Part shown: one piece after another, positions 23,198 to 30,422 of the stretch
How positions within the stretch are numbered: the stretch's first letter is position 1
Layout of the letters: every line of letters starts with the position of its first letter
Origin: Treponema sp.
GTDB taxonomy: Bacteria; Spirochaetota; Spirochaetia; Treponematales; Breznakiellaceae
Length of the DNA: 64,000 nt
Reading direction: 5' to 3'
Assembly: GCA_009781475.1 (NCBI GenBank)
Contig: WQYB01000007.1
Coordinates: 1-64,000, forward strand
Translations under genes and position numbers: made by a program
Notes under the pieces: generated by a model
What the model was told of the DNA's origin: nothing
What the model saw: the letters and a program-made list of their open reading frames with translations, nothing else
Database searches by the model: none

Positions 23198-23547
23198 TTT
23201 GTTAGAAAAATCATCATAAGGTGAACAGCGAAAAGACTTGACGGCGATATATGGCTGCTTTTCACAATAGATATGTTAGTGTATCCAGCGTTCATTATAA
23301 AATAAATAAAATTATCATTTATATAGGATTTTTAACAATTATCTTTGCGCTGGATGAGCTATAAAGGATTGTCGAGATTTCTGCCATCCTGAGCTGGCAA
23401 GGATTTTTGCAAGTCACCTTTAGGAATTTTAAATAAATTTCATTTTTTCTCATTTTCAGTCATGCGCCACAGCATATTCACGCCATATATAGGTATGAAA
23501 AAGTCAGGCTTTTGTCTGACTTAAAAAAACCTTGTTTGGGGGAAAAT
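23198..23547. other. Non-coding stretch of 350 bp before the Rpn gene
   Basis: No coding frame is credible here. The stretch holds an 8-bp inverted repeat (ATCCAGCG at 23283-23290 and CGCTGGAT at 23348-23355, 57 nt apart). It also holds a smaller TGCCA/TGGCA hairpin near 23390-23407 and a 7-bp stem-loop (AAGTCAG at 23501-23507, CTGACTT at 23516-23522). The last lies 25 nt before the Rpn start, so it would sit in the mRNA leader. It is followed on the plus strand by A residues, not T, so it is not a plus-strand intrinsic terminator. Confidence 0.5.
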
Positions 23548-24447
23548 ATGAAAAAAATACAATTTATCGAAAAGGACGCAGACCTGCTTCCGCCGTATGA
23601 CGACCGTATATTTAAAGCGCTGCTTACTCATCCTGATGCAAAACAAGTACTAATTGACATCGTATCTACTGTAATTGAACGACCTGTCATAGATGTACAG
23701 ATACGGAATATTGAACTGCCTGTTATGGACATTGAAGAAAAATCAGAACGTTTTGATGTAAACTGTACCGTAGAAAATGGAGATCAAGTAGATGTCGAAA
23801 TGCACTGTGAAGAAAGGGTTAATATTGGAGAAATAAACCGTAGTTTTATAAACAAATACATCTATTATCTGGCTGATTTACATTCATCACAGAAATCAAA
23901 AGGAATAAAATACAAGGATTTGGTAAGAACATATCAAGCTACTTTTTCCGTACACCCTGTTTTTCCATATTGTAATGATTTTATTCACAGATTTTCGTTA
24001 AGAAAGCAAAATGGTGAACAATTAAGCGACCAGATTAACATGGTGATAATTGAGTTAAATAAACTAAATGATTTATTAACAAAACCAGTTAATAATATGA
24101 CATCATTTGAGATGTGGTCAATTTTCTTTAAATTTGCTCCTGATATAGAGCAAAGAAATCTAATAAATGATATAATAAACAGTAAAGAGGAGATAGGTAT
24201 GGCAGCTACATTATTACGAGAAATAAGCAAAGACGAACATGAACGAGCGAGGCTTCGAAGCCGTCGAATGTATGAAACTGATAGAGAGTCTGACAGACTT
24301 ACTTCCGAAGAGATAGGTGAAATTAGAGGTGAAATTAGAGGGATTGAAAAAGGCGAAAAACGAGAGCGTGAAAGGTGGCAGGTTATTGATGCTGAAAATA
24401 AAGCAGAAATTGCACGTTTGAAAGCAGAGTTAGAGAAAAGGCAATAG
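23548..24447 (+). CDS. rpn: Rpn family PD-(D/E)XK nuclease (recombination-promoting nuclease / PDDEXK_2)
   Basis: This 299-residue protein belongs to the Rpn family, often mis-annotated as a transposase. The N-terminal nuclease domain opens with YDDRIFKALLTHPDAKQVLIDIV near residue 17. The catalytic strand has Asp70 (RFDVNCT) and Glu84 in VDVEMHCEE; His86 replaces the usual Gln or Lys after the Glu. The HSSQKSKGIKYKDLVRTYQ region and the downstream helical domain are typical. The C-terminal 80 residues are highly charged and contain a GEIR repeat (12 bp tandem unit at 24316-24339). I start it at ATG 23548, with TTTGGGGGA at 23535-23542. A TTG at 23512 is in frame but lacks a ribosome-binding site. 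Rpn nucleases are known from E. coli as phage-defence effectors. Confidence 0.85.
   Translation: MKKIQFIEKDADLLPPYDDRIFKALLTHPDAKQVLIDIVSTVIERPVIDVQIRNIELPVMDIEEKSERFDVNCTVENGDQVDVEMHCEERVNIGEINRSFINKYIYYLADLHSSQKSKGIKYKDLVRTYQATFSVHPVFPYCNDFIHRFSLRKQNGEQLSDQINMVIIELNKLNDLLTKPVNNMTSFEMWSIFFKFAPDIEQRNLINDIINSKEEIGMAATLLREISKDEHERARLRSRRMYETDRESDRLTSEEIGEIRGEIRGIEKGEKRERERWQVIDAENKAEIARLKAELEKRQ
24199..24447 (+). CDS. Candidate intragenic small protein (RpnS-like antitoxin), in frame within rpn
   Basis: An ATG at 24199, codon 218 of the Rpn gene and in the same frame, is preceded by AGAGGAG at 24186-24192 with 6 nt spacing. That is as strong as any ribosome-binding site in the window. It would give an 82-residue protein equal to the Rpn C-terminus, starting MAATLLREISKDE, highly charged and helical, with the GEIR repeat. 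In E. coli, rpn genes are known to make such C-terminal small proteins, which inhibit the full-length toxin. Caution: the Shine-Dalgarno match arises from a Lys-Glu-Glu codon run, so it could be fortuitous. No separate stop or promoter is needed. Confidence 0.45.
   Translation: MAATLLREISKDEHERARLRSRRMYETDRESDRLTSEEIGEIRGEIRGIEKGEKRERERWQVIDAENKAEIARLKAELEKRQ
24316..24339 (+). repeat. 12-bp tandem duplication in the Rpn C-terminal region
   Basis: GGTGAAATTAGA occurs twice in direct tandem (24316-24327 and 24328-24339) and encodes two GEIR units. The unit length is a multiple of three, so copy-number change would alter the length of the Rpn C-terminus and of the candidate small protein without a frameshift. 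Confidence 0.9.
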
Positions 24448-24462
24448 TTAAATAATATTGGG

Positions 24463-28731: not shown

Positions 28732-30327
28732 TTATTCCGAACGTACAAGTCTGATACCTGCAATATTATTTCTTCCATCAGGGCTAAAAGGATATCCGTA
28801 ACTTCGAGATGCTGAACGTCTTTGATCAGCTACTGCCCAGACATCGCTTCCACGCATTACACGAAAAGTTCCGGTTGAAGCTCCAGTTGGATTTGTTTGA
28901 TCTATATTTGGGTAAGCTCCATAAAAGTCCCAGCACCATTCACGAGTGTTACCGTACATATCATATAAACCCCATGGGTTAGGTGCATAAGAACCAACCT
29001 GCTTTTTTCCCCCGCCAAAATTTGCCTGATTTGATAATAATCTGTCTCCTGTATAAAATGGTGTCTTTGTCCCTGCTCGGCAGGCATATTCCCATTCGGC
29101 TTCTGTAGGCAATCTGTATCCGTTTGCGTTTTTATTCCATGTAACTGTTCTGTTATTACCAACACCGTTTATTGTATAAGCAAGAGTAAGCCCGTCTCTT
29201 AAACTGCGTCTGTTACAATATTCTATAGCATCAATCCAGCTTACTTCAACAGCAAAATTAAAATTAAAACGATCAACTTCTGTTCCCATTATTTCACTAT
29301 ATTCGCTATGTGTTACCATGTATGTACTCATATAAAATGAACTTAATGAAACTTGTCTTTGAGGACCTTCGTCCGATATGCGTCCTTCTTCACTTTCAGG
29401 ACTACCCATAGTAAAAGTACCTTCCGGTATGCGGACAAAACCTTCAAATACAGGACGCACACCTAATGTTGATGCAGCGGAAGGTGTAACTTGTACTGAT
29501 GCAGCAGGACGGGAGCCAAGAAACGCTGTTCCAAAATATTGACTGTAAATTGCAGGTATTTGCTGTCTGTTGCTTGCCTGTGATACATCAGCACCCGTTA
29601 AGCGAAATATTTCATTAACGTCAATTTCAGGATTTTCAAGATTATGCAAAAGATGATAAGTAAAAAGACCGTTTCTGCCAGTGCCGTCTGAAGCAACAGA
29701 ACCTGCGCTTGTTGCATAAATAATTATGCTGTCTGCCGGCTGGTTTGATACTGCAATAAGACCGCGGGTTAAAGAGCGGCTCCAGCTAAAAGGATTATCA
29801 CGGCAAGCATCAAGGACTACGACATTTAAAATATTTCCGGCGCTGTTTAATTCATCCAGCATAACCTGGACATTGACAGCGCGCACTCTTAAAAAACTTT
29901 CGCTTTGTATATTTATATCAACAGGTAAAAGATAATTTTCTCCGTTGGATTGAACCCCATGACCTGCGTAAAATAAAAATCCGTATGTGTTTTTATTGGC
30001 ACTAAGTTTATTTTTAAATGAAACAATTGCATTTTCCATTTGATCAAGATTTCCGTTAAGTATTTTATCTACAGTAAAACCAAGTCTTTGTAATGCGGCA
30101 GTTATATCATTTGCGTCATTTAAAGGATTCCTTAATCCGGAAATTGCGGTATAATTCCCGTTACCTATAACAAGAGCATGTTTGATTACATTCGAATCAT
30201 CATATTGAGTAACATTTACTGTGCGCCTTCCCGAAGGATCGATATTTGTACTGTCAACTTGTCTATTACATGAAAATAATGCAAAGAAGATAACAAACAA
30301 ATATAAAAACTTTTTTAAAAACAACAT
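28732..30327 (-). CDS. Lipoprotein with caspase-like (C14) and FGE/SUMF1 domains
   Basis: The 531-residue protein has a lipoprotein signal with Cys20 (ALFSC). A caspase-like peptidase C14 domain spans about residues 48-272: ALVIGNGNYTAISGLRNPLNDA opens it, with the catalytic His123 in YAGHGVQ and Cys175 in LDACRDNPF. An FGE-sulfatase (SUMF1) domain spans about 297-531, with IPEGTFTMGSPESEEG, RLPTEAEWEYACRAG, NPWGLYDMYGNTREW and the ending IAGIRLVR. The usual RGGSW reads RGSDVW, and the sulfatase-activating cysteines are absent, so this domain is probably structural or ligand-binding. I start it at ATG 30327, where the signal peptide begins; the longer frame has no ribosome-binding site. The gene heads the operon with the transglutaminase-like gene. 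Confidence 0.9.
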   Translation of the reverse strand: MLFLKKFLYLFVIFFALFSCNRQVDSTNIDPSGRRTVNVTQYDDSNVIKHALVIGNGNYTAISGLRNPLNDANDITAALQRLGFTVDKILNGNLDQMENAIVSFKNKLSANKNTYGFLFYAGHGVQSNGENYLLPVDINIQSESFLRVRAVNVQVMLDELNSAGNILNVVVLDACRDNPFSWSRSLTRGLIAVSNQPADSIIIYATSAGSVASDGTGRNGLFTYHLLHNLENPEIDVNEIFRLTGADVSQASNRQQIPAIYSQYFGTAFLGSRPAASVQVTPSAASTLGVRPVFEGFVRIPEGTFTMGSPESEEGRISDEGPQRQVSLSSFYMSTYMVTHSEYSEIMGTEVDRFNFNFAVEVSWIDAIEYCNRRSLRDGLTLAYTINGVGNNRTVTWNKNANGYRLPTEAEWEYACRAGTKTPFYTGDRLLSNQANFGGGKKQVGSYAPNPWGLYDMYGNTREWCWDFYGAYPNIDQTNPTGASTGTFRVMRGSDVWAVADQRRSASRSYGYPFSPDGRNNIAGIRLVRSE

Positions 30328-30333
30328 TTTTAT

Positions 30334-30362
30334 AATATATTGCATGAACTTTTCTAAGTCAA
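30334..30362 (-). promoter_or_regulatory. Promoter predicting a leaderless mRNA for the caspase/FGE operon
   Basis: On the reverse strand, TTGACT (30362-30357) is followed by exactly 17 nt and TATATT (30339-30334). Six nt then precede the ATG at 30327. Both boxes match five of six consensus bases, and no Shine-Dalgarno sequence is present. Confidence 0.65.
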
Positions 30363-30393
30363 TATAGGAAGTTAAAGTAAAGGTTTGGCTCCC

Positions 30394-30422
30394 TTGTCCC
30401 AAACCTCATTTCAAGGTAAAAT
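30394..30422 (+). promoter_or_regulatory. Candidate dnaE promoter with near-leaderless geometry
   Basis: TTGTCC at 30394-30399, a 17 nt spacer and TAAAAT at 30417-30422 precede the dnaE ATG (30431) by 8 nt. The -35 box matches four of six bases. No Shine-Dalgarno sequence at useful spacing is present (AAGG at 30413-30416 is 14 nt away). Confidence 0.5.

Follow-up and report, generated by a model that had tools for sequence, protein, structure and literature searches.

The window analysed here is a stretch of 64,000 nucleotides from a Treponema sp. genome (contig WQYB01000007.1, assembly GCA_009781475.1; 3.29 Mb in 216 contigs, 93% complete). On its plus strand lies a gene for an Rpn family nuclease, rpnL, and inside this gene, in the same frame, a shorter ORF, rpnS, the product of which would be the C-terminal tail of RpnL. 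The locus comprises the following features:

23441..23504, plus strand: promoter-like regulon element upstream of rpnL, (G)TCATGC - about 17 nt - CCATATATA (model R1, 72 bits)
23501..23522, plus strand: short hairpin in the rpnL leader, AAGTCAG-N8-CTGACTT (direct sequence reading)
23538..23543, plus strand: ribosome-binding site of rpnL, GGGGGA (anti-SD energy -8.4)
23548..24447, plus strand: rpnL, full-length Rpn nuclease of 299 aa, PD-(D/E)XK (D70, E84-x-H86) (PF12784, TIGR01784, AlphaFold2)
24168..24176, plus strand: internal promoter-like site TGATATAAT, extended -10 TGaTATAAT, for a predicted rpnS transcript (synonymous null, z 8.8)
24186..24192, plus strand: internal Shine-Dalgarno of rpnS, AGAGGAG (synonymous null, z -10.4; z -14.4 for 80 sites)
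24199..24447, plus strand: rpnS, internal in-frame ORF of 82 aa, predicted antitoxin (conserved start codon)
24208..24216, plus strand: codons 221-223, right behind the rpnS start, with unusual synonymous-site conservation (synonymous-site scan)
24315..24341, plus strand: 12-bp tandem repeat, 2.2 copies, 4-residue unit GEIR, within both products (repeat search, 100%)

The rpnL product matches PF12784 (1.8e-27) and TIGR01784 (1e-14), which makes it an 'Rpn family' protein, and has the N-terminal PD-(D/E)XK nuclease part of the COG5464/TIGR01784 kind. D70 and E84 are invariant across alignment A1 (35 sequences). An earlier sequence-only reading of the window had singled out the E-x-H motif (residues 84-86) as odd, and this was borne out in part: the motif is real, but it is not a lone oddity, H being found at the third place throughout the clade of the window gene, and it is no argument against activity. 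In sister clades H is replaced by T, S, Q or C while E84 is unchanged. The possibility that E-x-H marks a dead enzyme was rejected because the residue is clade-wide and because RpnA-Q84A of E. coli is still toxic (PMC5350276). The AlphaFold2 model of RpnL (pLDDT 86) has an alpha/beta nuclease core, a helical bridge and a single helix from residue 230 to 298, and Met218 lies inside a helix spanning 214-227. Searches against solved structures gave no fold match at E<=0.001, and a sequence search of the PDB was also without a relative.

In this genus rpn genes are multicopy, and fragments and broken copies are common. The source assembly has an intact paralogue that is 94% identical (L002) in addition to more distant paralogues. 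L002 aligns with positions 23349-24452 of the window only; the left part of the match takes in the regulon element, which is also present at unrelated genes, and on the right the match ends in the region of the stop codon. Terminal inverted repeats, by which the copies of an autonomous transposon could be told, were not noticed by eye at rpnL copies, without a dedicated search. The named relatives are Treponema MAGs (records WQXE, WQTD, WQSN and WQWU), which we take to be termite-gut genomes, going by isolate names. A MAG labelled Chitinispirillales has an Rpn gene 58% identical to rpnL of the window (L086:3001-3846), for which gene transfer or misbinning are both possible.

The sequence-only reading had claimed that AGAGGAG at 24186-24192 is followed after 6 nt by an in-frame ATG at 24199 and would give a protein of 82 residues, and this held exactly in the sequence. 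The ATG is in frame with that at 23548, and the 82 codons of rpnS correspond to residues 218-299 of RpnL, the stop codon being common to both. Among the internal in-frame ATGs of window genes, only 3 of 423 are preceded by a site that pairs with the anti-SD at -9 kcal/mol or below. Taken alone, and within the window, such a site is uncommon and could be due to chance; a chance A/G-rich site cannot be excluded from the window by itself and was rejected on the conservation in relatives, which is the decisive evidence. At the family level, ATG218 is found at the same column in 104 of 133 distinct related ORFs, and in alignment A1 the start codon is invariant, as are both Met218 and Ala219. In a further 14 of the 133 ORFs the ATG lies one codon earlier (EEGI-M-x-A) with the ribosome site retained, and in L131 the internal ATG is replaced by TTG, a legal start codon, again with the ribosome site retained. 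A further subfamily has GGAGG-N-ATG about 12 codons upstream of the usual internal start; the basis for this subfamily 3 start is the ORF listing, and a pattern count matched one sequence only. All aligned genus homologues that cover the site have a purine-rich, mostly AGGAGG-like sequence at the same spacing before the ATG, and this Shine-Dalgarno outlives changes in the amino acids that it encodes (KEE-IG-M, EEG-IA-M, KEA-LK-M and QEG-IA-M). Met241 was considered as an alternative internal start, 14 residues ahead of the repeats and therefore nearer the E. coli spacing, and was rejected; it lacks a Shine-Dalgarno and is not conserved beyond the closest clade.

Two tests at synonymous sites separate the constraint on the nucleotides from that on the protein. 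With codons redrawn randomly and amino acids held fixed, the summed Shine-Dalgarno pairing energy of 39 distinct sequences is -406.5 kcal/mol compared to -240 +/- 16 kcal/mol for the null (z -10.4). At the Shine-Dalgarno columns GAG is strongly chosen, although GAA is the preferred codon in general; at column 214, 35 of the 39 sequences have GAG, compared with 32% overall. Synonymous nulls for the Shine-Dalgarno and the promoter treat relatives as independent and, therefore, these z values are inflated and represent upper estimates. The synonymous-site scan, which covers the whole gene and corrects each pair for overall similarity, is the safer test: in the clade of the window gene (18 sequences) all top windows fall in codons 203-228, where N207-D208-I209, E214 and T221-L223 stand out as peaks, and codons 213-218 rank first among the 60 sequences of the second clade.

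The peak at codons 207-209 reads AATGATATAAT, an extended -10 box that is distinct from the ribosome site. This promoter-like TGATATAAT at 24168-24176 had been missed by the sequence-only reading. It is retained in nearly all members of the clade, even where the Asp codon is changed to Gly or Ala (GAT, GGT, GCT), and an rpnS transcript is predicted to begin near 24183, just ahead of the Shine-Dalgarno; this start is inferred without RNA data. Much of the second clade within the genus has a different site, TTGACA/C-17-TANAAT or a close variant, about 12 bases further upstream. Both sites exceed the synonymous null (z 8.8 in the clade of the window gene and z 10.0 in the second clade). In E. coli, an internal transcription start has been mapped in every rpn gene (PMC10327210). 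In total, the comparative data show that the internal start, the ribosome site and the promoter-like site are under selection at the nucleotide level; that the start is translated is an inference.

The tail carries variable 4-residue repeats. Arrays of 12 bp, in about 2 to 10 copies, are present in 39 of 104 relatives and begin 32-67 codons past the internal ATG (mostly 36-47); in the window copy, the 4-residue repeats begin about 38 residues past the internal start. Arrays of 21 bp, corresponding to coiled-coil heptads, are also found in the tails of relatives, and the tails of L002 and of rpnL in the window show a difference of 21 bases. Modelled alone, the 82 residues of RpnS form one helix (pLDDT 93); monomer modelling is unable to show the expected dimer.

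In several relatives the small gene also exists on its own. In L101 (2140-2928), rpnL is followed by two tandem stand-alone rpnS genes, each within about 20 bases of the stop codon before it; both open with the Shine-Dalgarno and ATG that begin the internal gene, and the first lacks one 4-residue unit compared with the tail of the rpnL upstream. L118 (2270-2932) and L123 (minus strand) each have one stand-alone rpnS directly downstream of rpnL, and L123 has an additional broken copy. The stand-alone genes differ in the number of 4-residue repeats. Given that rpnL is succeeded by stand-alone rpnS copies, the duplicated unit is the small gene and not the nuclease, and this duplication is shown by the sequence comparisons. 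An internal GGAGG and an ATG (GSEV-xx-M) are likewise conserved in the Rpn genes of the PF04754 type (YhgA-like) that these genomes carry, and it is likely, as inferred from sequence, that several Rpn families within one genome bear internal starts. PF04754-type genes with the internal GGAGG/ATG were seen in L139-L141, L156, L160-L162, L236 and L254. Separately, an orphan RpnS-like ORF of 77 residues (L007:1498-1731, minus strand; contig C149 of the same genome) resembles the tail of the L005-type Rpn and lies directly downstream of what by eye is a HEPN/minimal-nucleotidyltransferase-like pair.

The closest known system is RpnL/RpnS of E. coli (rpnA-E and rpnP2; PF04754, YhgA-like; Zhong et al. 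2023 preprint, PMC10327210). Shared with it are the N-terminal PD-(D/E)XK nuclease, the in-frame internal Shine-Dalgarno and ATG that yield the C-terminal tail, the 4-residue (12-bp) tail repeats and stand-alone rpnS genes downstream in some strains, the arrangement in L101, L118 and L123 being like that of rpnE-ypaA. To the internal transcription start of E. coli there corresponds, in the Treponema gene, a promoter-like site only. The Treponema gene departs from the E. coli kind in several respects, which are shown as differences in sequence or model: (i) the nuclease part is PF12784 with E-x-H as opposed to PF04754 with E-x-Q, (ii) RpnS has 82 aa compared to about 50, (iii) RpnS is predicted to be a single long helix whereas that of E. 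coli is a three-helix bundle, and (iv) the full-length gene lies behind an element shared with recombination and DNA-uptake genes, which is not a feature of the E. coli system, so that dual promoters, both putative, would be involved. Moreover, in E. coli and other figured species the repeats begin 8-20 residues past the internal start (PMC10327210), as opposed to about 38 here, and this, along with the differences above, is why we call the locus a variant. The rpn gene of Clostridioides difficile, from another phylum, likewise has tail repeats, and its internal start was shown by mutation in E. coli (PMC10327210). A more distant parallel is Cas10d/Cas11d of type I-D CRISPR (cited in PMC10327210), in which translation from an in-frame start inside the gene for the large subunit likewise yields a small subunit; unlike the predicted RpnS, Cas11d completes a complex rather than inhibiting, and the proteins are unrelated.

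The other claims of the sequence-only reading can be judged against these data. The 12-bp tandem unit (24315-24341, 2.2 copies, 100%) held, and the likeness to E. coli Rpn nucleases with inhibitors made from internal starts was correct (PMC10327210). Lack of conservation of the internal ATG and ribosome site was to have refuted the proposal; both are kept across genus and family beyond the demand of the protein, and the proposal stands unrefuted. Its toxin-antitoxin interpretation is supported, with further support from the stand-alone copies, while the antitoxin function remains inferred.

Upstream of rpnL lies an element of about 65 nt that has 25 copies at E<1e-5 in the same genome and is present in 37 of 40 genus genomes. 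The copies have the same orientation as the adjoining gene and are usually about 60 bases or less from its start. They precede recA, ssb, radC, comF, comM (Mg-chelatase family) and a gene for a RecQ-like helicase. Further copies stand ahead of genes for a secreted-type DNase and for ORF6N proteins, of the genes for three exported proteins and of rpn genes of several kinds. Two other genomes repeat much of this list, and in the genus the majority of sub-1 rpn genes are preceded by the element. Its most constant blocks are (G)TCATGC and CCATATA. Given that the gap between them, about 17 bases, corresponds to promoter spacing, it seems reasonable to suspect an alternative sigma factor, which, judging from the sequence, possibly reads the element. 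It may mark a regulon for DNA uptake and recombination, which is a tentative inference from sequence. The genome has comEC and dprA, but there is no element ahead of either; for this reason 'DNA-uptake/recombination regulon' is a safer name than 'competence regulon'. The literature searched contained no spirochaete regulon of such a kind and no competence regulon in these bacteria. The ribosome site of rpnL (-8.4) has a slightly weaker anti-SD energy than the internal site of rpnS (-9.0); because the rpnL start is also a strong site, the ratio of the two products cannot be read from the sequence.

Combining the comparative data with those reported for E. coli, we suggest that the locus is likely an RpnL toxin/RpnS antitoxin pair, with toxicity and neutralisation inferred from the E. 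coli system. In this model, (i) one frame would give rise to two proteins, RpnL (23548-24447) and RpnS (24199-24447), (ii) RpnL would be a PD-(D/E)XK DNA nuclease that is harmful to the cell when free, (iii) RpnS, the all-helical C-terminal tail made separately via the internal promoter TGATATAAT and ribosome site, would pair with the identical tail of RpnL and hold the nuclease inactive, (iv) the 4-residue repeats would decide which RpnS matches which RpnL, and (v) RpnL would be driven by a separate, regulated promoter common to recombination and DNA-uptake genes. If expression then moved from RpnS-rich to RpnL-rich, or if RpnS were lost, the nuclease might be freed to attack incoming DNA of phages or other sources. 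In E. coli, one added repeat abolishes recognition (PMC10327210). Toxicity and DNA cleavage by RpnL, neutralisation, complex formation and phage defence are all inferred by analogy with E. coli, and conditional release of RpnL via two promoters is inferred from the upstream element. The main reading rests on sequence comparison, with no spirochaete expression, toxicity or binding data behind it.

Alternatively, the small protein is made and acts not as an inhibitor but as a partner subunit that builds or aims an active RpnL complex in the manner of Cas11d and Cas10d (precedent cited in PMC10327210). Selection on the internal start is silent about the sign of the RpnS effect, and a single-helix RpnS would fit a scaffold role. 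Against this, the E. coli Rpn tails that were tested inhibit their own RpnL (PMC10327210), and a conserved separate promoter-like site for RpnS fits an antitoxin made in excess. We consider the partner-subunit model unlikely.

Two further explanations are less likely still. If there were no internal initiation, Met218 and the preceding Lys/Glu codons would be kept for the sake of the protein and A/G-rich codons would merely mimic a Shine-Dalgarno; in agreement with this, Met218 and Ala219 are invariant in A1 and lie within a helix, and K/E codons are purine-rich. However, GAG is favoured over the usually preferred GAA, synonymous sites across the whole gene peak at the site, the signal persists through amino-acid change, ATG shift and the change of ATG to TTG, and the stand-alone copies retain it. 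It has also to be considered that rpnL is a decaying or domesticated gene of a mobile type (annotated 'putative transposase'), neither product of which is now functional, given that the genus is rich in multicopy, fragmented and broken copies and that the Pfam and TIGRFAM names say transposase. Yet the window copy is intact with D70 and E84 kept, its 94% identical paralogue is intact, and constraint is visible both at synonymous sites and in the protein.

The toxin-antitoxin model, which we favor, would extend the range of intragenic Rpn systems from E. coli and C. difficile to the PF12784 branch in spirochaetes, on evolutionary evidence. The promoter-like site of rpnS is conserved there, and its start has changed place between subfamilies. 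It also offers a testable answer to how RpnL may be released, namely by separate promoters for the two proteins, that of the toxin being common to recombination and DNA-uptake genes. If the candidate regulon is true, it points to an undescribed regulon in these bacteria. A bolder reading, which as a whole is slightly more likely to prove wrong than right, is that the Rpn nucleases of these spirochaetes belong to a competence-like regulon of DNA uptake and recombination. Here, a dedicated promoter would turn on RpnL together with RecA, SSB, RadC, ComF, ComM and RecQ, while RpnS would be constantly made from the nested housekeeping-type promoter, tying Rpn activity to the entry of foreign DNA.

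Several minor observations were made. Copies of the element, in addition to that at 23441-23504 of the window, are those in L138-L157, L158-L182 and L215-L254. The three conserved exported proteins that share it are L159, L163 and L182 (contigs C19, C35 and C11 of the same genome), with homologues in G009 and G017; the two of the three that were scanned have no Pfam match, and all three might, speculatively, be surface components of a DNA-uptake machine. The hairpin in the rpnL leader, placed after the upstream element and ahead of the ribosome site of rpnL, has variants in L002, L008 and L138, and might conceivably serve leader regulation. Elsewhere in the window, the ORF at 28732-30402 (minus strand) is suggested, by eye only, to encode a caspase-like domain with a sulfatase-modifying-factor-like domain behind it.
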